From: Azoarcus sp. L1K30
GTDB lineage: Bacteria; Pseudomonadota; Gammaproteobacteria; Burkholderiales; Rhodocyclaceae
Length of the DNA stretch: 64,000 nucleotides
Direction of reading: 5' to 3'
NCBI RefSeq assembly: GCF_018122735.1
Contig: NZ_JAGRRD010000001.1
Location: 4,585,486 to 4,649,485, forward strand
In this document: positions 16,542 to 27,192 of the stretch, one piece after another
How positions within the stretch are numbered: the first letter of the stretch is position 1
How the letters are laid out: every line of letters starts with the position of its first letter
Translations under genes and position numbers: made by a program
Notes under the pieces: generated by a model
Database searches by the model: none
The model's input: the letters and a program-made list of their open reading frames with translations, nothing else
Told to the model about the DNA's origin: nothing

Positions 16542-17834
16542 ATGAAATCGGCACTGGGTTTTCTGATCGCTGCGCGACGCTGTGAGATCCACGGACTCGA
16601 GCAGCTCGAGGTCACCAGCGAACTGGTGAAAGGCGTGAGCGAACTTGTGCACATGCTGCAGCGTGAGCGCGGTACCTCGAACATCTATCTCGCCTCGGGC
16701 GGCAAACGATTTGCCGGGCAGCGTGCAGAACGTGTCGCGGCGAGTCTGGCGGTCGAGTCGGCGGTGCGCGAGCAGTTTTCCGGGCTCGACACCGACAGCG
16801 GGCGCATGGCCGGCGGTGTGCGCCTGTTCAGCCGGATTGCCCATGTCCTGCACGGGCTGGACTCGCTCCCGGCGCTGCGGGAGCGAATTGCCGCGAATGA
16901 CATTACGTCCGACGAAGCCATGCGCTGCTATACCGAGCTGGTCGCCGGCTTGCTCGCGGTGGTGTTCGAAGCGGCCGACACGGCGGCCAATCCGGTGATT
17001 TCGCGTGCCCTGGTCGCCCTGTTCAATTTCATGCAGGGTAAGGAACTCGCGGGTCAGGAACGTGCGGTGGGGGCGGCAGGTTTCGCGGCGGGACGCTTCG
17101 ATGCTGCGGGTCAGCAACGCTTGGCGCACCTGATCGACGCCCAGGAGCGGTGCTTTCAGATTTTCACGGAGTTTGCCGACGCAACCCTGCGCACGATCTG
17201 GCGCAATGCCCAGAATTCGGAGGCCGTCGCCGCGCTCGAGCGCATGCGTCGTATTGCCTGCGCCGCGTCGCCGGCAGCGTTCGACGGCGATGCCGGCGAG
17301 CGTTGGTATGAGTGTGCCACCGCACGGATCGATGTGATGCGCCAGGTCGAAGACTGTGCGACCAATGCGTTGCTGCACGTGTGCGAAACGCAATTGACCG
17401 AGGCCCGGGCAGATCTGCAGGATCACAAACGGTTTCTCGACAGTCTTTCGGCGCTTGGCGGACAGGCGGCTGCGCCGGTCGCCATCTTTCTCGACAAGCC
17501 GGCACGGTCCGACGACGTCGGTGCGGCGGGCGACAATGAGGGGCTGTTGAGTGCGGGCGGGCTCGGTCCCCACCTGGGGCGGTCGGTGCTCGATCTGATG
17601 CAGGCGCAGTCGCAGCGCCTGCAGACCATGAGCGACGAGCTCAATACGGCGCGCGCGGCGCTCAATGAGCGCAAGTTGGTCGAGCGTGCCAAAGGGCTGC
17701 TGATGTCGCGGCTGGGGCTGAATGAGGCCGAAGCGTACAAGATGCTGCAGCAGACCGCGATGAACCAGCATCGCCGCCTCGCCGATGTGGCGGAAGCGAC
17801 CCTGTCACTGGCCGATTTCCTCAAGCGCGGCTGA
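16542..17834 (+). CDS. nasR: Nitrate/nitrite-sensing NIT-ANTAR transcription antiterminator, NasR type
   Basis: 430 residues. The N-terminal ~300 residues are a helical NIT domain containing LVHMLQRERGTSNIYLASGG (Arg41/Arg43), the nitrate/nitrite-binding type. The C-terminal ~60 residues (LNERKLVERAKGLLMSRLGL onwards) form an ANTAR RNA-binding domain. In the known Klebsiella system, NasR binds hairpins in the nas leader and lets RNA polymerase pass a terminator. Here the next gene is nrtA, and its leader carries matching hairpins (18114-18172). I chose ATG 16542 with a GGGAG-like upstream sequence; a longer frame from 16404 overlaps rlmB. Confidence 0.93.
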   Translation: MKSALGFLIAARRCEIHGLEQLEVTSELVKGVSELVHMLQRERGTSNIYLASGGKRFAGQRAERVAASLAVESAVREQFSGLDTDSGRMAGGVRLFSRIAHVLHGLDSLPALRERIAANDITSDEAMRCYTELVAGLLAVVFEAADTAANPVISRALVALFNFMQGKELAGQERAVGAAGFAAGRFDAAGQQRLAHLIDAQERCFQIFTEFADATLRTIWRNAQNSEAVAALERMRRIACAASPAAFDGDAGERWYECATARIDVMRQVEDCATNALLHVCETQLTEARADLQDHKRFLDSLSALGGQAAAPVAIFLDKPARSDDVGAAGDNEGLLSAGGLGPHLGRSVLDLMQAQSQRLQTMSDELNTARAALNERKLVERAKGLLMSRLGLNEAEAYKMLQQTAMNQHRRLADVAEATLSLADFLKRG

Positions 17835-17958: not shown

Positions 17959-18006
17959 TGCACTAAGCCTGTGCGGGCGGTGCTGCTATTGCACTGCAGC
18001 AGTGCG
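17959..18006 (+). promoter_or_regulatory. Two NtrC-like enhancer sites upstream of nrtA
   Basis: Two 17-bp dyads of the form TGCACY-N5-RGTGCA: TGCACTAAGCCTGTGCG at 17959-17975 (one weaker half) and TGCACTGCAGCAGTGCG at 17990-18006. Their centres are 31 bp apart, about three helical turns. They lie about 143 and 112 bp before the predicted sigma-54 start site. This spacing resembles the strong NtrC sites of enterobacterial glnA. The assignment is by pattern only. Confidence 0.75.
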
Positions 18007-18083: not shown

Positions 18084-18099
18084 TGGCACGCTTACTGCG
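18084..18099 (+). promoter_or_regulatory. Sigma-54 (-24/-12) promoter of the nitrate assimilation operon
   Basis: TGGCACGCTTACTGCG has the invariant GG (18085-18086) and GC (18097-18098) with 10 bases between, and 5' TGGCACG is the consensus -24 element. Transcription would begin near 18110, four bases before the first regulatory RNA hairpin. NtrC-type enhancers lie upstream at 17959-18006. Confidence 0.85.
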
Positions 18100-18113
18100 T
18101 TAGTCACTGCAAA

Positions 18114-18172
18114 GCTGGACCAATGATGGTTCGGCGTTCGACACAATCCCGAACACTGGACAAAGGCGTCCA
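18114..18172 (+). promoter_or_regulatory. ANTAR-target dual-hairpin RNA in the nrtA leader
   Basis: P1: GCUGGACC (18114-18121) pairs over 8 bp with GGUUCGGC (18128-18135), closing the hexaloop AAUGAU. P2: UGGAC (18157-18161) pairs with GUCCA (18168-18172), closing AAAGGC. Both loops are six bases with A at position 1 and G at position 4, the known recognition features for ANTAR proteins. The 21-base linker could form a small GUUCG/CGAAC stem. P2 uses bases 18162-18172, which are also the 5' arm of the terminator, so the two folds exclude each other. The encoded NasR-type protein upstream is the expected ligand-dependent binder. Confidence 0.85.
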
Positions 18173-18217
18173 TTCCCTCAGCGTCAGATGCGCCGAGAAG
18201 GAATGAGGCGCCTTTTT
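18162..18217 (+). terminator. Leader terminator before nrtA, competing with the ANTAR hairpin
   Basis: The 5' arm 18162-18179 (AAAGGCGUC, CAUUCC, CUC) pairs with 18195-18215 (GAG, GGAAUG, GGCGCCUUU), with only a bulged AA and a bulged A. The U run is 18213-18217. The stem has about 18 pairs and ends 30 bases before the nrtA ATG. Its 5' arm begins exactly at the first loop base of P2. Confidence 0.9.
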
Positions 18218-18247
18218 GCATTCCCGAATTCAATCAAGGAGTTCAAC

Positions 18248-19648
18248 ATGACCAAGCAGACAATCAAGACCCCCGAGCTGACCCGCCGTGGCTTCATCAA
18301 GGCCAGTGCCGCCGCCGGGACGGCTGCGATGTTGTCCGGCCTCTTCCCCGCAGGCGTGTGGGCCGCCGGATCGGAAGGGCTGGAGAAGACAGCGCTCAAG
18401 TTCGGCATCATTCCACTGACCGACTGTGCCCCGATCGTGATTGCCAAGGAGAAGGGTTTCTTCAAGAAGCATGGCCTCGATGTGGAGATCTCCAAGGAGG
18501 CTTCCTGGGCCAACATCCGCGACAAGGTCTCGCTGGGCGAATTGGACGGTGCGCACATGCTTGCCGGCATGCCGTTGGCCGCCACGCTGGGTGTCGGTGC
18601 CACCCAGCAGGAGACCGTCACTGCCTTCTCCATGGACCTCAACGGTAACGGCATCACGGTGTCTAACGAACTTTACGATCGCATGCTCGCTGCCGACCCG
18701 GCGGCGATGAAGGGGCGCCCGACGTCCGCCTTGGCGCTGAAGAAGGTGATCGACGAGGACAAGAAGGCCGGCAAGGAGCCGATGACCTTCGCCATGGTGT
18801 TTCCGGTGTCCACCCACAACTACGAAATCCGTTACTGGATGGCGTCTGCCGGCATCGATCCGGATCAGGACGTGCGCCTGATCGTGATTCCGCCGCCGCA
18901 GATGGTTGCCAACCTGCAGTCGAAGAACATCGTCGGTTACTGCGTGGGCGAGCCGTGGAACCAGCGTGCGGTGGAAATGGGCATCGGGCGCTCGATCATC
19001 ACCAATTACGAGATCTGGAACAACAACCCGGAGAAGGTGTTCGGCGTCACCCGCGAGTGGGCGGACAAGAACCCCAATTCGCACAAGGCGGCGGTGCGCG
19101 CGCTGATCGAGGCGGCGCAGTGGATGGACAAGCCCGAGAACCGTGGCGAGGTGGTGAAGATCATTTCGGCCAAGTCCTTCGTCAATGCCCCGGAATCGGT
19201 GGTCGAGAACTCGATGACCGGCACCTGGCTGTACACCAAGGCCGAAGGCCCGCAGAAAATGCCGGACTTCAATGTCTTCTATCGTTATGCGGCCACCTTT
19301 CCGTGGCGTTCGCATGCGGTGTGGTTCCTGACCCAGATGGTGCGCTGGGGGCAGATCGATCAGGCCATCAACTTCAGGAAGGTCGCCGAGCAGGTCTATC
19401 GCGCAGATATCTACCGTGATGCGGCCAAGGACCTTGGTATCGCCATTCCGACCATCGATTACAAGAGCGAAGGCACGCATACCGGGGGCTGGACGCTGGA
19501 CAAGGCGTCCGCACCGATCGCCATGGGGCCGGATCACTTCTTTGACGGCATGACCTTCGACCCGTCCAAGCCGGTGGACTACCTCAAAGGCTTCAAGGTG
19601 AATTCGATGAAGGTCAGTCTCGACGCATTGGCCAAGGCAAACGGTTGA
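18248..19648 (+). CDS. nrtA: ABC-type nitrate/nitrite transporter, substrate-binding protein NrtA/NasF
   Basis: 466 residues. It starts with a twin-arginine signal (TRRGFIKASAAAGTAA), so it is exported folded to the periplasm. The mature part fits the NrtA/CmpA family: LKFGIIPLTDCAPIVIAKEKGFFKKHGL, then GYCVGEPWNQRAVEMGIG. ATG 18248 follows AAGGAGTTCAAC, a good ribosome-binding site; an earlier in-frame ATG at 18188 lies inside the terminator stem and is not used. First gene of the operon nrtA-nrtB-nrtC-cobA-nirB-nirD, behind the sigma-54 promoter and ANTAR leader. Confidence 0.95.
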   Translation: MTKQTIKTPELTRRGFIKASAAAGTAAMLSGLFPAGVWAAGSEGLEKTALKFGIIPLTDCAPIVIAKEKGFFKKHGLDVEISKEASWANIRDKVSLGELDGAHMLAGMPLAATLGVGATQQETVTAFSMDLNGNGITVSNELYDRMLAADPAAMKGRPTSALALKKVIDEDKKAGKEPMTFAMVFPVSTHNYEIRYWMASAGIDPDQDVRLIVIPPPQMVANLQSKNIVGYCVGEPWNQRAVEMGIGRSIITNYEIWNNNPEKVFGVTREWADKNPNSHKAAVRALIEAAQWMDKPENRGEVVKIISAKSFVNAPESVVENSMTGTWLYTKAEGPQKMPDFNVFYRYAATFPWRSHAVWFLTQMVRWGQIDQAINFRKVAEQVYRADIYRDAAKDLGIAIPTIDYKSEGTHTGGWTLDKASAPIAMGPDHFFDGMTFDPSKPVDYLKGFKVNSMKVSLDALAKANG

Positions 19649-19674
19649 ATCCTGTCATGGACGAGGAGAAGGAC

Positions 19675-20598
19675 ATGAGTGCAATTTCGATCACGACGTC
19701 GCCGCCAGTTGCGGAGCCGGTCGCAACGCAGCCACTCCCTGCGCAAACTGCTGCACGGCCTGCCCTGCAGGCGGCAGACTCGGTGGAGGCGCGGTCCCCG
19801 ACGCTGGGTGAGCGCATCGCACCGGCCGCGGGAAAGGTGGTGCGCGCACTGGTGGCGATGATTTCGGGCATGGGCTTGCTGCTTGCGATCTGGTGGGCGG
19901 TGTCAAGCCGCATCGACATGTTCCCCGGCCCGGTGGTGACCTGGCACGCGGCGGTCGAGTTGCTGTCCGATCCGTTCTACAGCAATGGTCCGAACGACAT
20001 GGGCATCGGCTGGAACGTGCTTTATTCGCTGGGTCGTGTCGGGGTCGGCTTTGGCTTGGCGGCCCTGGTCGGCATCCCGCTGGGTTTCGTCGTCGGACGC
20101 TTCAAGTTCATGAACATGGCCACGGAGCCGGTGATCGGTCTGTTGCGTCCGGTATCGCCTCTGGCCTGGTTGCCGATCGGCCTGCTGGTGTTCCAGGAGG
20201 CCAATCTCGCCGCCATCTGGGTGATCTTCATCTGCTCGATCTGGCCGATGATCATGAACACCGCGGCTGGCGTGCGCTCGGTGCCGCAGGATTACCTGAA
20301 CGTGGCCCGCGTGCTGAACCTGTCCGAGTGGAAGATCGTTACCAGGATCCTGTTTCCTGCGGTGCTGCCCAACATCCTGACCGGCGTGCGCCTGGCCATC
20401 GGCACCGCCTGGCTGGTGATCGTTGCCGCGGAGATGCTGACCGGTGGTGTCGGTATCGGCTTCTGGGTGTGGGACGAGTGGAACAACCTCAAGGTCGAGC
20501 ACATCATCATCGCCATCTTCATCATCGGCATCGTCGGCCTGATTCTCGAACAGGCGCTGATGCTGGTGGCCCGACGTTTCAGCTACGAAAGCCGCTAA
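19675..20598 (+). CDS. nrtB: ABC-type nitrate/nitrite transporter, permease NrtB/NasE
   Basis: 307-residue inner-membrane permease. A variable N-terminal ~50 residues precede six or so membrane segments. The EAA-loop signature is near the C-terminal third (VARVLNLSEWKIVTRILFPAVLPNILTGVR), and GTAWLVIVAAEML is typical of nitrate/sulfonate/taurine permeases. ATG 19675 is preceded by GAGGAGAAGG, which decides the start over the TTG at 19645. It follows nrtA by 26 bp. Confidence 0.95.
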   Translation: MSAISITTSPPVAEPVATQPLPAQTAARPALQAADSVEARSPTLGERIAPAAGKVVRALVAMISGMGLLLAIWWAVSSRIDMFPGPVVTWHAAVELLSDPFYSNGPNDMGIGWNVLYSLGRVGVGFGLAALVGIPLGFVVGRFKFMNMATEPVIGLLRPVSPLAWLPIGLLVFQEANLAAIWVIFICSIWPMIMNTAAGVRSVPQDYLNVARVLNLSEWKIVTRILFPAVLPNILTGVRLAIGTAWLVIVAAEMLTGGVGIGFWVWDEWNNLKVEHIIIAIFIIGIVGLILEQALMLVARRFSYESR

Positions 20599-20608
20599 GG
20601 GGATCGTC

Positions 20609-21403
20609 ATGACGAAGAAAATCGTACAGATCGAAAATGTCGGTCAGTCCTTCGACACCAAGAAGGGGCCCTACGTTGCGCTGCGCGAGATCAATCTCGA
20701 CATCCGCGAGGGCGAGAGCATCGCGTTGATTGGCCACTCGGGCTGTGGCAAATCGACCCTGCTCAACCTGATTGCCGGACTCACGCTGCCCAGCAGCGGC
20801 GTGATGCTGTGCGACGGCCGCGAAATTGCCGGCCCCGGCCCCGAGCGCGCGGTGGTGTTCCAGAACCACTCGCTGCTGCCATGGCTGACCTGCTTCGACA
20901 ATGTCTATCTGGCGGTGGAGCGCGTGTTCGGCGCCAGGGAAGGCAAGGCCAGGCTCAGGGAACGGACGCACGCTGCGCTCGATCTGGTGGGCCTGAGCCA
21001 TGCCGAGAACAAGCATCCGCACGAAATCTCGGGCGGCATGAAGCAGCGTGTGGGCATTGCCCGGGCGCTGTCGATGCAGCCGCGCATTCTGCTGATGGAC
21101 GAGCCCTTTGGTGCGCTCGACGCGCTGACCCGCGCCAACCTGCAGGACGAGTTGATGAAGATCCTTGCCGCCACCAAGGCCACCATGGTGATGGTGACCC
21201 ACGATGTCGACGAGGCGGTGTTGCTGTCAGACCGCGTGATCATGCTCACCAACGGGCCGGCAGCCACCATCGGCGAGATTCTCGAGGTCGATATCGAGCG
21301 CCCGCGTGACCGCCTTGCGCTGGCCCATGATGCGCACTTCGGCGAATGCCGGGCGGCGATCATGGAGTTCCTCTACAACAAGCAACTCAAGCGCGCCGCC
21401 TAG
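20609..21403 (+). CDS. nrtC: ABC-type nitrate/nitrite transporter, ATPase NrtC/NasD
   Basis: 264-residue ATPase energising NrtAB. Walker A GHSGCGKST is near residue 46, the Q-loop FQNHSLLPWL near 90, signature SGGMKQRVGIARAL near 143 and Walker B ILLMDEPFGALD near 163, followed by the H-loop VTHDVDEAV. It has no fused substrate-binding domain, so it is of the NrtD/NasD rather than cyanobacterial NrtC type. It begins 10 bp after nrtB and is followed by cobA at 13 bp. Confidence 0.95.
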   Translation: MTKKIVQIENVGQSFDTKKGPYVALREINLDIREGESIALIGHSGCGKSTLLNLIAGLTLPSSGVMLCDGREIAGPGPERAVVFQNHSLLPWLTCFDNVYLAVERVFGAREGKARLRERTHAALDLVGLSHAENKHPHEISGGMKQRVGIARALSMQPRILLMDEPFGALDALTRANLQDELMKILAATKATMVMVTHDVDEAVLLSDRVIMLTNGPAATIGEILEVDIERPRDRLALAHDAHFGECRAAIMEFLYNKQLKRAA

Positions 21404-21416
21404 CCGGGAGCCCGAC

Positions 21417-22181
21417 ATGTCAAAAGTGTATCTGATCGGTGCCGGACCGGGCGCCGCGGACCTGCTCACCCTGCGCGCGGCCAGGCTGCTTGCGGAGAAG
21501 GCCGAAATCGTGCTCGCCGACGACCTCGTGTCGGACGAAATCCTCGCCATGGTGCGCCCCGAAGCGCGGGTGCTCAAGGTCGGCAAGCGTGGTGGCAGGG
21601 CGTCCACGCCGCAGGGCTTCATTCATCGGCTGATGGTGCGTTACGCACGACGCAGCGGGTGCGTGGTCAGGCTCAAGGGAGGCGATCCGTATGTGTTCGG
21701 ACGCGGCGGAGAAGAGGTTGAAGCACTTGCGCTGGCCGGGGTGGAGACCGAAGTGGTGCCCGGGCTGACCGCCGGCATTTCGGTGCCGGCTGCGGTCGGC
21801 ATTCCGGTCACCCATCGCGCCTACACCCAGGGCGTGACCCTGGTGACCGGCACCTCCGGCGACGGCTGCACCGAGCCCAACTGGCCGGCGCTGGCGCGCA
21901 GCGGCACGACGCTGGTGATCTACATGGGCCTGTCGCGGCTGCTCAACATCGTTGCGCGCTTGATCGCCGGCGGCCTGCCGCCGGATACCCCGGCTGCCGC
22001 CATCGCATCGGGCACGCTGCCGGCGCAGCGCCATGTGAAAGGTACGCTCGCCGACCTGCCGGCACGGGTCTGTGCCGAAGGACTTACCTCGCCGGCCATC
22101 ATCGTGGTTGGCGAAGTTGCCGCACTGGCGGTGGAGGCTGCGGGTTCGCAGGACCCGTCCATTCGCACCCTCGCGGCCTGA
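21417..22181 (+). CDS. cobA: Uroporphyrinogen-III C-methyltransferase (SUMT)
   Basis: Methylates uroporphyrinogen III twice to precorrin-2, the precursor of siroheme needed by the adjacent nitrite reductase. 254 residues with [18 protein letters not shown] at the N-terminus, [18 protein letters not shown] and [21 protein letters not shown], all diagnostic. It lacks the dehydrogenase/ferrochelatase half of CysG, so that step must be encoded elsewhere. ATG 21417 is chosen because it gives [12 protein letters not shown]; a longer frame overlaps nrtC. Confidence 0.95.
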
Positions 22182-22192
22182 AGGAGAACATC

Positions 22193-24691
22193 ATGCAGAA
22201 ACAAAAGCTTGTAATGGTCGGAAACGGCATGGCAGGGGTCAAGACGCTTGAAGAGTTGATCAAGCATGCCCCCGACCTTTTCGACATCACCGTGTTTGGT
22301 GCGGAGCCGCACGGCAACTACAACCGCATCCTGCTGTCGCCGGTACTCGCTGGGGAAATGACCCTGCCCGACATCATGCTCAATGATCTCGACTGGTATC
22401 GCGACAATGGCATCACCCTGCATGCCGGGCGCAAGGTCGTGGAGATCAATCGCGCGCGGCGCACGGTGCGGGCCGATGACGGCACCGAGGTAGCGTACGA
22501 CCGCCTGTTGCTGGCCACCGGCTCGGTGCCCTTCATCCTGCCGGTGCCGGGCAAGGACTTGCCGGGCGTGATCGCCTATCGCGACATTGCCGATACCGAA
22601 GCGATGATCGAGGCGGCGCAGCACCATCGCCATGCGGTGGTGATCGGTGCCGGCCTGCTCGGACTCGAGGCCGCCAACGGGCTGATCCTGCGCGGCATGG
22701 AAGTGACCGTTGTCCACCTCGGTGGCTGGATCATGGAGCGTCAGCTCGACAAGGCCGCGGCAGACATGCTGCAGGCGTCGCTCGAGGCCAAGGGCATGAA
22801 GTTCTGCCTGCAAGCACAGACCGCAGAACTGCTGGCCGCCGACAGTGGGCGCGTCGGTGCGGTCCGTCTCAAGGATGGCACCGAACTGGCTGCCGATCTC
22901 GTGGTGATGGCTGCGGGCATCCGCCCCAGCACCAGCCTGGCCGAATCGGCCCGCCTGCACTGCGAACGCGGCATCGTCGTCACCGATACGCTGCAGACCG
23001 TCACCGATCCACGCATCTATGCGGTGGGCGAGTGCGCCAACCATCGTGGCACGGCATACGGCCTGGTGGCGCCGCTGTTCGATCAGGCCAAGGTGTGCGC
23101 AAACCATCTTGCCGGCTTCGGCATCGGCCGTTACCTCGGCTCGGTGACGTCGACCAAACTCAAGGTCACCGGTGTGGACGTGTTTTCCGCCGGCGACTTC
23201 CAGGGCGGCGCGGATTGCGACGAGATCGTGCTCCACGACCGCGCCGGCGGCGTGTACAAGAAGCTGGTGCTCAAGGACGACAAGCTCGCAGGTGCCGTGA
23301 TGGTGGGCGATACGGCCGATGGAGCCTGGTACTTTCAACTCGTGCGCGAGGGCAAGGACGTCGCCGAGATGCGCGACCACCTCATGTTTGGCCAGAGTTT
23401 CACCCAGTCGCAACTGGGCGATGCCGGCCACCAGGGGCAGAGCCAGGCTGCGCTGTTACCGGATACGGCCGAGATCTGCGGTTGCAATGGCGTGTGCAAG
23501 GGCACCATCGTCAAGGCCATCCGCGAAAAGGGCTTGTTTACGCTCGACGAGGTGAAGAAACACACCAAGGCATCGTCGTCCTGCGGGTCATGCACCGGTC
23601 TCGTCGAACAGATTCTTGCCTCGACCGTGGGCGGTGCATATCAATCGACCGACAAGTTCGCCAAGCCCGTCTGCGGGTGTACCGAGCACACACATGGCGA
23701 GGTGCGCGAAGCGATCCGTCAGCAGAAGCTGCTGACCATTCCCGACACCATGCGGGCACTTGAATGGAGTACGCCGAATGGCTGCGCAACCTGCCGCCCG
23801 GCGCTCAACTACTACCTGATCTCCACCTGGCCGTTCGAGGCCGAGGATGATCCGCAAAGCCGCTTCATCAACGAACGTGCTCACGCCAACATCCAGAAGG
23901 ATGGCACCTACTCGGTGGTGCCGCGCATGTGGGGCGGGCTGACGACGCCGGACGAACTGCGTGCGATCGCCGATGCGGCGGAGAAATACAAGGTGCCGAC
24001 GGTCAAGGTCACCGGCGGTCAGCGCATCGATCTGCTGGGCGTGAAGAAGTCCGATCTGCCGCTGATCTGGTCCGATCTCAACGCCGCTGGCATGGTGTCC
24101 GGCCATGCCTACGGCAAGAGCCTGCGCACGGTGAAGACCTGCGTCGGCAAGGAGCACTGCCGCTTCGGCACTCAGCTGGCGATGGATCTCGGGGTGAAGC
24201 TGGAGAAGATGCTGTTCGGCATGTGGAGCCCGCACAAGGTGAAGCTGGCCGTGTCCGGCTGCCCGCGCAATTGCGCCGAATCCGGCATCAAGGACGTGGG
24301 CGTGATCGGCGTCGATTCCGGCTACGAGCTCTACGTGGCAGGAAACGGCGGGATCAAGACCGAAGTCGCGCAGTTCTTCTGCAAGGTCGGCAGCGACGAA
24401 GAGGTGATGGAGTACGGCGGCGCCTTCCTGCAGTTGTACCGCGAGGAGGCGTATTACCTCGAGCGTACCTGCCACTACATCGAACGGGTCGGGCTCGAGC
24501 ATGCAAAGAAGCTGGTCGTTGAGGATGCGGCCAACCGAAAGGCGCTGTACGAACGCCTGCTGTTCGCGCTCAAGGATGCGCCCGACCCGTGGGCCGAACA
24601 GCGTACCGCGCCGCTGGTACGCAACTACCAACCCATTGACCTGACAAACAACGGAGATCGCCATGGCCTGGCAGAAACTGTGTCCTCTTGA
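22193..24691 (+). CDS. nirB: Assimilatory NAD(P)H nitrite reductase, large subunit
   Basis: 832 residues; reduces nitrite to ammonium in the cytoplasm. An N-terminal FAD/NAD oxidoreductase part (VMVGNGMAGVKTLEEL; GAGLLGLEAANGL) is followed by two BFD-like [2Fe-2S] segments with CGCNGVCKG/CGSC around residues 425-470 and CGCTEH/CATC around 500-540. Then come the sulfite/nitrite reductase half domains. The siroheme/[4Fe-4S] ligands are Cys650 and Cys656 (TCVGKEHCRFGT) and Cys690 and Cys694 (SGCPRNCAE). The gene overlaps nirD by 29 bp. nasB is an equivalent name. Confidence 0.96.
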   Translation: MQKQKLVMVGNGMAGVKTLEELIKHAPDLFDITVFGAEPHGNYNRILLSPVLAGEMTLPDIMLNDLDWYRDNGITLHAGRKVVEINRARRTVRADDGTEVAYDRLLLATGSVPFILPVPGKDLPGVIAYRDIADTEAMIEAAQHHRHAVVIGAGLLGLEAANGLILRGMEVTVVHLGGWIMERQLDKAAADMLQASLEAKGMKFCLQAQTAELLAADSGRVGAVRLKDGTELAADLVVMAAGIRPSTSLAESARLHCERGIVVTDTLQTVTDPRIYAVGECANHRGTAYGLVAPLFDQAKVCANHLAGFGIGRYLGSVTSTKLKVTGVDVFSAGDFQGGADCDEIVLHDRAGGVYKKLVLKDDKLAGAVMVGDTADGAWYFQLVREGKDVAEMRDHLMFGQSFTQSQLGDAGHQGQSQAALLPDTAEICGCNGVCKGTIVKAIREKGLFTLDEVKKHTKASSSCGSCTGLVEQILASTVGGAYQSTDKFAKPVCGCTEHTHGEVREAIRQQKLLTIPDTMRALEWSTPNGCATCRPALNYYLISTWPFEAEDDPQSRFINERAHANIQKDGTYSVVPRMWGGLTTPDELRAIADAAEKYKVPTVKVTGGQRIDLLGVKKSDLPLIWSDLNAAGMVSGHAYGKSLRTVKTCVGKEHCRFGTQLAMDLGVKLEKMLFGMWSPHKVKLAVSGCPRNCAESGIKDVGVIGVDSGYELYVAGNGGIKTEVAQFFCKVGSDEEVMEYGGAFLQLYREEAYYLERTCHYIERVGLEHAKKLVVEDAANRKALYERLLFALKDAPDPWAEQRTAPLVRNYQPIDLTNNGDRHGLAETVSS

Positions 24692-26253: not shown

Positions 26254-27192
26254 ATGAGTTCGGGTCTGATGCTTGTGCTTTCCTTGCTGGCGCTGATGCT
26301 TGGCGTGTGGGCGCTGCGTGTCCGACGCACGCGCTATCGCAGGCGCATTTCGCGCGAGGAGGTGAAGCGTGCGCTTGGCGCGTGTACCAGTCTGATCGAC
26401 ATGCTGGCGGCCCTGCAACAACATCGCGGCCTCAGTACCGGATGGCTTGCCGGAGACAGGGGCTTCGAGCGCCGCATGCTTGCGCGCAGGCGCGACATCG
26501 AGCGGCTCATGCCCGCGTTGATGCGGGCTGCGGAGCTCGAGACTGGGGCGATTCGACCCCGTTTCACGGTCAATGATGCAAGCGTGTTCCGCCACCGCTG
26601 GAAGGTGCTGGTGGATGATCTGGGTGCGTCGACGCCGGAGCAGAACATCGGGGCCCACACAAGACAGATCGAGCGCCTGACCGCGATGATCGCAGCCCTG
26701 GGTGAGGCCCGGATCGAGCTGCCTGCAGCGTCGGAGTTGCCCGTCGGCATGGCGAGGAATTTTGCCTGTCGCCTGCCGGCACTCAGCGAATGTCTCGGGC
26801 AGACAAGGGCAATCGGCAGTGCTGCGGCCGCTGCCGGATACTGTGCGCCGGTGGCGAGGGTCAGGCTCATGTTCCTGGTGTCGCGTGCCGAGTCCTTGCT
26901 TCGTCAGGCAGCAGAGCTCGATGCCGGGCAGCATGCGATGCTGGCACGGCAGCATGTAGAACGGCTTGCACGTCAGGTGCGCACGGGACTGCTCGACGCA
27001 GCGGGGACGAACGTTAGCGCAGACGCATTCTTTGCGACGGCGACAACCGCCATCGACTGCATCTTCGACTGGATCCGGGCGAACGCGGAAGCGATCGAGA
27101 AGTGCATGCACTCGCCTGGCGCTGCCCGGGCGGCATCAAATACCATTCCTGTTGCTGCGGCAGGCACAAGACTCGCCACGGCGGCACGATAG
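26254..27192 (+). CDS. Membrane-anchored NIT-like (nitrate/nitrite sensing) domain protein
   Basis: 312 residues. An N-terminal membrane helix (residues 4-22) is followed by Arg-rich RVRRTRYRRR, which by the positive-inside rule puts the rest in the cytoplasm. Residues ~40-290 are all-helical. Residues 46-64 (SLIDMLAALQQHRGLSTGWL) resemble the ligand-binding helix of NIT domains, including that of NasR at 16542-17834 (LVHMLQRERGTSNIYL). There is no output domain such as a kinase, ANTAR or GGDEF. It ends 3 bp before the convergent exonuclease gene. The NIT assignment is by motif resemblance and is not certain. Confidence 0.6.
   Translation: MSSGLMLVLSLLALMLGVWALRVRRTRYRRRISREEVKRALGACTSLIDMLAALQQHRGLSTGWLAGDRGFERRMLARRRDIERLMPALMRAAELETGAIRPRFTVNDASVFRHRWKVLVDDLGASTPEQNIGAHTRQIERLTAMIAALGEARIELPAASELPVGMARNFACRLPALSECLGQTRAIGSAAAAAGYCAPVARVRLMFLVSRAESLLRQAAELDAGQHAMLARQHVERLARQVRTGLLDAAGTNVSADAFFATATTAIDCIFDWIRANAEAIEKCMHSPGAARAASNTIPVAAAGTRLATAAR

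Follow-up and report, generated by a model that had tools for sequence, protein, structure and literature searches.

In Klebsiella, as the available portions of the published reports describe it, the adenine at position 1 and the guanine at position 4 of the loops (A1 and G4) and the stem of the first hairpin (P1) are essential, and the second hairpin (P2) is the antiterminator (PMC3369936, PMC3369931). The protein NasR binds paired A1/G4 hexaloops, with an affinity of about 1 µM, only with nitrate or nitrite, and its read-through in vitro was reported as 52% with nitrate versus 5% without (PMC7496416). In the eut system the distance between the two hairpins is limited: the available parts of two papers report that a linker of 14 nt drastically reduced induction and that the addition of 20 nt abolished antitermination (PMC3369931, PMC8934654). 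Furthermore, a review describes the Pseudomonas RNA NalA as the leader of nirBD, with a sigma54- and NtrC-dependent start, bound by NasT (PMC12830290, in the part available).

Here we describe a leader upstream of nrtA in the window, by which we mean the whole stretch of 64,000 nt of Azoarcus DNA that was analysed. With a probability of roughly 88%, this locus is an attenuator of transcription of the NasR type that is controlled in two steps, first by NtrC and sigma54 and then by a NIT-ANTAR protein. A switch of this kind is already known, and what the analysis adds is the promoter logic, a reading of the narK RNA family and a set of natural linker variants. The features of the locus are the following.

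16542 to 17834, plus strand: gene of a NIT-ANTAR (NasR-type) regulator of 430 aa, the proposed trans-acting antiterminator (Pfam NIT 1.4e-58, ANTAR 5.1e-19)
17959 to 17974, plus strand: NtrC-type palindrome TGCAC-N7-GTGC, one of the two perfect matches in the window
17990 to 18005, plus strand: NtrC-type palindrome TGCAC-N7-GTGC, 31 bp from the first, with the inverted repeat GCACTGC/GCAGTGC
18084 to 18098, plus strand: sigma54-type (-24/-12) promoter TGGCACGCTTACTGC, the sole perfect match to TGGCACGNNNNCTGC in 64 kb
18114 to 18135, plus strand: P1 hairpin of 8 bp with hexaloop AAUGAU (A1, G4), from the predicted fold and compensatory changes
18136 to 18154, plus strand: linker stem GUUCG/CGAAC, abutting P1, with 18136-18140 paired to 18150-18154 (5 bp) in the predicted fold
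18157 to 18172, plus strand: P2 antiterminator hairpin of 5 bp with hexaloop AAAGGC (A1, G4), from the predicted fold
18162 to 18217, plus strand: intrinsic terminator from the predicted fold, mutually exclusive with P2, with a U-tract at 18213-18217
18236 to 18241, plus strand: AAGGAG, the likely ribosome-binding site of nrtA, by inspection of the sequence
18248 to 19648, plus strand: gene of an nrtA-type binding protein, the first controlled gene (Pfam NMT1_2 1.1e-100; likely Tat signal)
19645 to 20598, plus strand: nrtB, nitrate ABC permease (TIGR01183, 243.1 bits against a cut-off of 209.05)
20609 to 21403, plus strand: nrtC/D, nitrate ABC ATPase (TIGR01184, 336.7 bits against a cut-off of 291.8)
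21420 to 22181, plus strand: cobA, uroporphyrinogen-III methyltransferase for sirohaem (TIGR01469, 281.5 bits against a cut-off of 185)
22193 to 24691, plus strand: nirB, nitrite reductase large subunit (TIGR02374, 923.1 bits against a cut-off of 578.35)

The leader, about 108 nt long, lies 3′ of the NIT-ANTAR gene (16542-17834) and 5′ of nrtA (18248), and it has two predicted folds. RNA from 18112 to 18217 folds into P1, the linker stem and the terminator, with a minimum free energy of -48.1 kcal/mol (z -5.76) that none of 200 shuffles matched, while RNA ending at 18174, before the 3′ arm of the terminator, folds into P1, the linker stem and P2 (-24.3 kcal/mol, z -3.70). The predicted terminator consists of 18 bp and an apical stem of 4 bp, and loop base 1 of P2, at 18162, is where its 5′ arm begins. 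In the free RNA, the P1 loop is predicted to have A1 paired with U6. Both loops are closed by C-G, a reported feature of NasR SELEX targets (PMC7496416, in the part available), and the linker of 21 nt, with two nt unpaired 3′ of its stem, falls inside the limit of 2-25 nt given in the available part of another report (PMC8164766). The leader thus has two neighbouring small hexaloop hairpins with A1 and G4, the arrangement of an ANTAR target, and folding and pairing predict that P2 overlaps and excludes an intrinsic terminator, as is also expected of such a target. The preliminary description had given P1 and P2 with these coordinates, bases and loops, and we found them correct; the terminator of about 18 bp that it placed at 18162-18217, starting at P2 loop base 1, was reproduced by folding, its exclusivity with P2 is seen in the alternative folds of the full and the 18174-ended RNA, and the 21-base linker does hold a small stem of its own (18136-18140 with 18150-18154, 5 bp). 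The observation is therefore confirmed as real.

Two A1/G4 hexaloop hairpins, the second pairing into a T-run, occur at one place on both strands of the window and at none in 40 first-order Markov copies of it, in a search for stems of at least 5 bp whose thresholds were chosen with the case already known.

Next we examined the conservation of the leader at NIT-ANTAR relatives, drawn from 150 family genomes and from a species collection. We found both hairpins by pattern search at 95 of 105 NIT-ANTAR loci (the window's included), 91 of them with a sigma54-like element, and no leader by this pattern search at the remaining 10, where the species-collection part comprises the best 80 of 330 loci. 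An NrtA homologue starts at most 400 nt past the terminator in 85 of 94 leaders; among the other nine, the DNA beyond the leader measures just 247-1,238 nt in eight and 5.7 kb in L075. The search pattern required A1, G4, three inner P2 pairs and a 4-bp P1 stem, so that statistics from the alignment of 60 leaders are partly circular and the invariance of A1 and G4 in it is uninformative. The pattern also chose the wrong P1 in five loci, two of which (L042, L090) were dropped before alignment together with two copies of the window (L001, L003) and with rows lacking a terminator or, with four exceptions, a sigma54-like element. Thinning took 94 rows to 63, and removal by hand of the other three loci with a misassigned P1 (L073, L107, L112) left 60 non-redundant leaders.

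In these 60 leaders, 90.0% of the P1 and P2 cells are paired and seven of the eight P1 pairs vary on both sides. The covariation score of P1 and P2 together is 0.495 versus 0.141 in shuffled alignments, a value that none of 500 shuffles reached and that exceeds the maximum of 0.153 obtained by sliding the structure, with the reservation that kinship among leaders can inflate such scores. Because the original pattern required a 4-bp P1, we added two further checks. Picking the leaders had placed no requirement on the outer four pairs of P1, and these alone score 0.821 versus 0.227 (0 of 500 shuffles). Furthermore, a selection of sites on P2, terminator and sigma54-like element, P1 not being required, gave 127, of which 110 have an A1/G4 hexaloop hairpin of at least 5 bp in the spacer upstream of P2 (shuffled mean 2.8, maximum 8); after thinning, 49 of 59 do (shuffled maximum 6). 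P2 is not assessable by covariation, since its four inner pairs are invariant and three of them were required by the search pattern. The covariation check on both hairpins that the preliminary description had proposed thus came out positive for P1, through its outer pairs, and found P2 invariant. C:G closure of the loop is seen in 58 of the 60 leaders for P1, where scoring favoured it, and in all 60 for P2, where the pattern required it.

The terminator partner pairs with P2 loop base 3 at 106 of 128 sites (shuffled maximum 78). A repeated co-evolution of P2 loop and terminator was considered and rejected: a tree of 87 proteins shows two independent switches, the sign test is not significant, and an unpaired C/U state at loop base 3 occurs in 10 of the 87 tree rows. 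With two independent switches only, the co-change at this base is weak support. A third ANTAR hairpin in Variovorax was likewise rejected; an extra 5′ stem is common there, and we left it uncounted because its loop, by eye, often has no A1.

We then ran a covariance model of P1 and P2 only, promoter and terminator excluded, on whole genomes. In the family, whose genomes overlap the training set, 55 of 150 genomes match the model (E at most 0.01), and an ANTAR protein is encoded in all 55 versus 93 of 150 overall; 38 of these 93 ANTAR-bearing genomes have no model match. In the class, whose genomes may share species with the training set, 24 of 185 genomes match, 22 of them with an ANTAR protein versus 64 of 185 overall, and the two matching genomes without one (G211, G287) both have E above 0.006. 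The best match lies at most 2 kb from an ANTAR gene in 18 of the 23 class genomes besides the window's, and at most 5 kb in 20. Outside the training alignment, 37 of 51 model matches have a sigma54-like site (background 15%), some of these at unusual distances, and 47 have a T-run (background 10%); for the 37 matches of at least 30 bits the counts are 29 and 37. These 51 derive from 61 matches in a search of 59 chosen loci, after removal of six duplicates, one training leader (L140), L182, L154 and the second match in L147.

In the window's own genome, a model match at C1:2287831 (E 0.19) is within a coding frame, and we attribute it to chance; three further matches have E above 7. Leaders of the same kind precede a cobA-like gene at four loci (L170, with a TP_methylase match; L171, L172 and L175, by eye), 3.4-5.1 kb from another model match in the same genomes (G086, G026, G130, G044). 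The model search of the window showed no leader before cobA.

Neither the sigma54-type promoter nor the pair of NtrC-type palindromes 5′ of it appears in the preliminary description. The pattern TGGCACGNNNNCTGC is a sigma54-type consensus form that was fitted to the site at 18084-18098, and TGCAC-N7-GTGC is the consensus form for NtrC. With mismatches allowed, the window is no richer in either pattern than its shuffles. Among relatives, 78 of 91 leaders have an NtrC-type site with at most one mismatch 5′ of their sigma54-like element, versus 8% of random windows, and the sigma54-like sites themselves are similar in sequence and position. From the promoter we infer an RNA start near 18110, which would place P1 within the first few bases of the RNA.

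The gene upstream of the leader does encode the NIT-ANTAR protein that the preliminary description had named, with both domains in a single chain (NIT 1.4e-58, ANTAR 5.1e-19). Its closest solved relative is NasR (4akk, 8.9e-56), and the match spans both domains. Relative to NasR, the positions of R340 and K347 are kept and that of W362 is Tyr. In a set of 92 aligned proteins to which the window's own belongs, 90 have Arg at the R366 position, but the window protein has Gln there (residue 403, codon 17748-17750); at the N373 position it has His, found in 3 of the 92 versus Asn in 69. In the available part of the NasR study, changing R366 to alanine abolished RNA binding and N373 was likewise needed (PMC7496416). 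The presence of R340 and K347 in 92 of 92 is uninformative, because the pattern used to pick the proteins required both. Of the three autoinhibitory pairs proposed for NasR, Q194-W362 is the sole one kept, as Gln with Tyr; E191-R340 and R193-E359 are absent, with Ala-Arg and Gln-Ala in their places. Given the two absent pairs, and given that as many as 53 of 92 aligned proteins carry Ala in the place of E191, this NIT-ANTAR group may be gated differently from NasR. The missing pairs weaken the statement that the protein is gated exactly as NasR, not the statement that it works like NasR.

The window holds a second NIT-domain protein at 26254-27192 (Pfam NIT 9e-10, no ANTAR match), whose gene lies about 1.6 kb after nirB and adjoins a frame resembling a chemotaxis receptor. 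The window's genome also holds a second ANTAR protein, a REC-ANTAR (L002, C1:963240-963398) beside a HisKA_2 histidine kinase.

Two ANTAR proteins in one genome raise the question of which one works the switch. With Gln at the R366 position weakening the NIT-ANTAR protein, and a kinase adjoining the REC-ANTAR, the latter could be the regulator of what would still be an ANTAR switch. We consider this improbable: the NIT-ANTAR gene is the neighbour of the leader, the leader accompanies 95 of 105 NIT-ANTAR loci (the collection part being the best 80 of 330), two congeners (G067, G115) have a single ANTAR match and it stands beside the same leader, and the NIT-ANTAR protein keeps the R340 and K347 positions, with Tyr for W362. 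The leader model shows no site near the REC-ANTAR gene.

Next, we compared the leader with Rfam. No match was found at the window leader at gathering score; its best match is P11 (RF00625) with 29.1 bits, below the gathering threshold of 70, and narK RNA (RF03032) reaches 24.4 bits, below 43.2. P11 is presumably NalA. Among 20 leader loci searched at gathering score, the only matches are to narK RNA, at L148 and L149, both originally fetched by that model. The family name "sRNA P11" and its type as a gene would suit a reading of the locus in which a short terminated RNA with a role in trans is the chief product and attenuation comes second. This we regard as very improbable, because 29.1 bits is far under the P11 cut-off, NrtA lies past the terminator in 85 of 94 leaders, and NalA itself is described as a NasT-bound nirBD leader (PMC12830290, in the part available). 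A reading without protein control, in which the terminator is an ordinary one and the hairpins arose by chance, is scarcely credible, given the conservation and covariation of P1 and the tie between leader and ANTAR genes across genomes.

The narK RNA family was reportedly described in Weinberg 2017. We found that a search for it in the 185 class genomes returned 11 places in 10 genomes, two of them above gathering score, and that nine of these 10 genomes encode an ANTAR protein versus 64 of 185 overall. Five matches (L148, L149, L150, L151, L158) have a sigma54-like site, P1, P2 and a T-run, and so does L152, where the promoter is looser; L153, L156 and L157 have hairpins and a T-run with a poor or absent promoter, L154 has no such hairpin pair, and L155, from the genome without ANTAR, has a P2-like hairpin only. 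L148 precedes a major facilitator family gene that by eye is NarK-like. Based on these sites and hairpins and on the ANTAR-encoding genomes, we consider it most likely that narK RNA is a leader targeted by an ANTAR protein, which proposes an ANTAR regulator for this Rfam family; among the open-licence papers searched we found none that names a regulator or an ANTAR link for it. At L153 and L156, three successive A1/G4 hexaloop hairpins stand before an NMT1_2-family (nrtA-like) gene, with no clear sigma54 site.

Linker length varies from 8 to 50 nt in the 60 leaders. Linkers of at least 15 nt fold at -1 kcal/mol or lower in 34 of 37 cases, shorter ones in 1 of 23. At -2.5 kcal/mol or lower we count 32 of the 37 long linkers versus a mean of 15.4 and a maximum of 21 after dinucleotide shuffling, and for 16 clustered representatives none of 200 shuffled sets is as low in energy. 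Compared with length-matched genomic pieces the difference is small (0.86 vs 0.70), and the unpaired linker length of the 16 representatives shows no clear difference from shuffles. Pairing of the linker stem is kept in 93.3% of cells in 15 related leaders, without covariation there, and linker-stem covariation is weak or absent overall. It is possible that the linker stems serve to keep the unpaired linker short.

A second leader is found in the window's own genome.

L182:2920-3290 (C1 about 429,919-430,289), minus strand: second own-genome ANTAR-type leader, 5′ of the gene of a formate/nitrite transporter, retaining P1 (loop AAAGGC), P2, the terminator and a sigma54-like site

In the congeners G067 and G115 (L168, L169) the second leader stands before a formate/nitrite transporter gene and has no insert; the transporter gene of the window's genome matches Pfam Form_Nir_trans at 8.2e-63. 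In the own-genome copy, P1 and P2 are separated by an insert of about 190 nt that is largely dispersed repeat: a 129-nt piece of it has 73 BLAST matches in the genome, the self match included and many of them partial. The stretch from P1 through the insert to P2 folds tightly (z -6.82). With folded linkers and this naturally inserted repeat, the published rule on linker length becomes open to direct test. Tentatively, and with more doubt than confidence, we propose that the sigma54/NtrC-started, ANTAR-controlled leader is one widespread module that includes narK RNA and P11, in which the EutV rule for the P1-P2 distance is satisfied by folded linkers (stems, up to the structured repeat of about 190 nt in the second leader) that bring the loops within reach of one dimer.

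Downstream, the genes nrtA to nirB would be those controlled. The nrtA product has a TAT_signal score of 21.5 bits, slightly below the cut-off of 22.7, and its neighbouring genes point to a role in nitrate uptake. In Azoarcus olearius BH72, likely a relative of the window organism, nitrogen-fixing conditions raise the expression of nirC and of genes for the uptake and reduction of nitrate more than 50-fold, and lower nitrate reductase expression is reported for an ntrBC mutant (PMC8467165, in the part available).

Taken together, the NasR-type attenuator with two-step control would work as follows. Judging from the sites, when nitrogen is limiting, phosphorylated NtrC on the two palindromes (17959-18005) would activate sigma54 RNA polymerase at 18084-18098, and transcription would begin near 18110, a few bases 5′ of P1. 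In the predicted ground state without inducer, the RNA would fold into the terminator at 18162-18217 and transcription would stop before nrtA. Once it has bound nitrate or nitrite, the NIT-ANTAR dimer would grip the hexaloops of P1 and P2, and because P2 would then be held by the protein, the terminator could not form and read-through into nrtABC-cobA-nirB would follow. The linker stem may reduce the distance from one loop to the other. Expression of the nitrate-uptake genes would thus probably require two conditions at once, a shortage of nitrogen and the presence of nitrate or nitrite. The preliminary description's interpretation as an ANTAR-type antitermination switch is supported by these results, and the complete cis/trans pair it saw here is what we infer from leader and neighbouring gene. 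A single, testable switch with two conditions would then govern the uptake of nitrate in Azoarcus-type bacteria and in many Burkholderiales.

Among known systems, as far as the available portions of the cited papers describe them, the eut leaders of Enterococcus faecalis resemble the window in having dual A1/G4 hexaloop hairpins in which P2 excludes the terminator (PMC3369931), whereas EutV, unlike the window protein, is a phosphorylated response regulator (PMC3369931) and the eut linkers are 5-12 nt long versus 21 nt with a stem in the window (PMC3369931, PMC8934654). The narK RNA consensus shares with the window a sigma54 -24/-12-like start and a hairpin, there with loop AACGGC, and its segment CGAC-AAAGAC-GUCG is a potential second hexaloop hairpin (P2) unmodelled by Rfam; unlike the window, it has a short consensus linker, and the Rfam model has one stem. 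The Pseudomonas NalA leader shares the sigma54 and NtrC start, an ANTAR protein and a terminator (PMC12830290), and the sensor there, unlike in the window, is the NasS-NasT pair. The P11 consensus has a sigma54-like element, a hexaloop hairpin and a stem between the hairpin and the terminator arm, as in the window. The window differs from Klebsiella oxytoca nasF in that it controls nrtABC-cobA-nirB, in its 21-nt linker with a stem of its own and in the lack of conservation of several NasR interface residues, and it resembles the NasR/nasF system in its NIT-ANTAR protein, in its two A1/G4 hexaloop hairpins, in a P2 that overlaps the terminator and in the control of nitrate assimilation (PMC3369936, PMC7496416).
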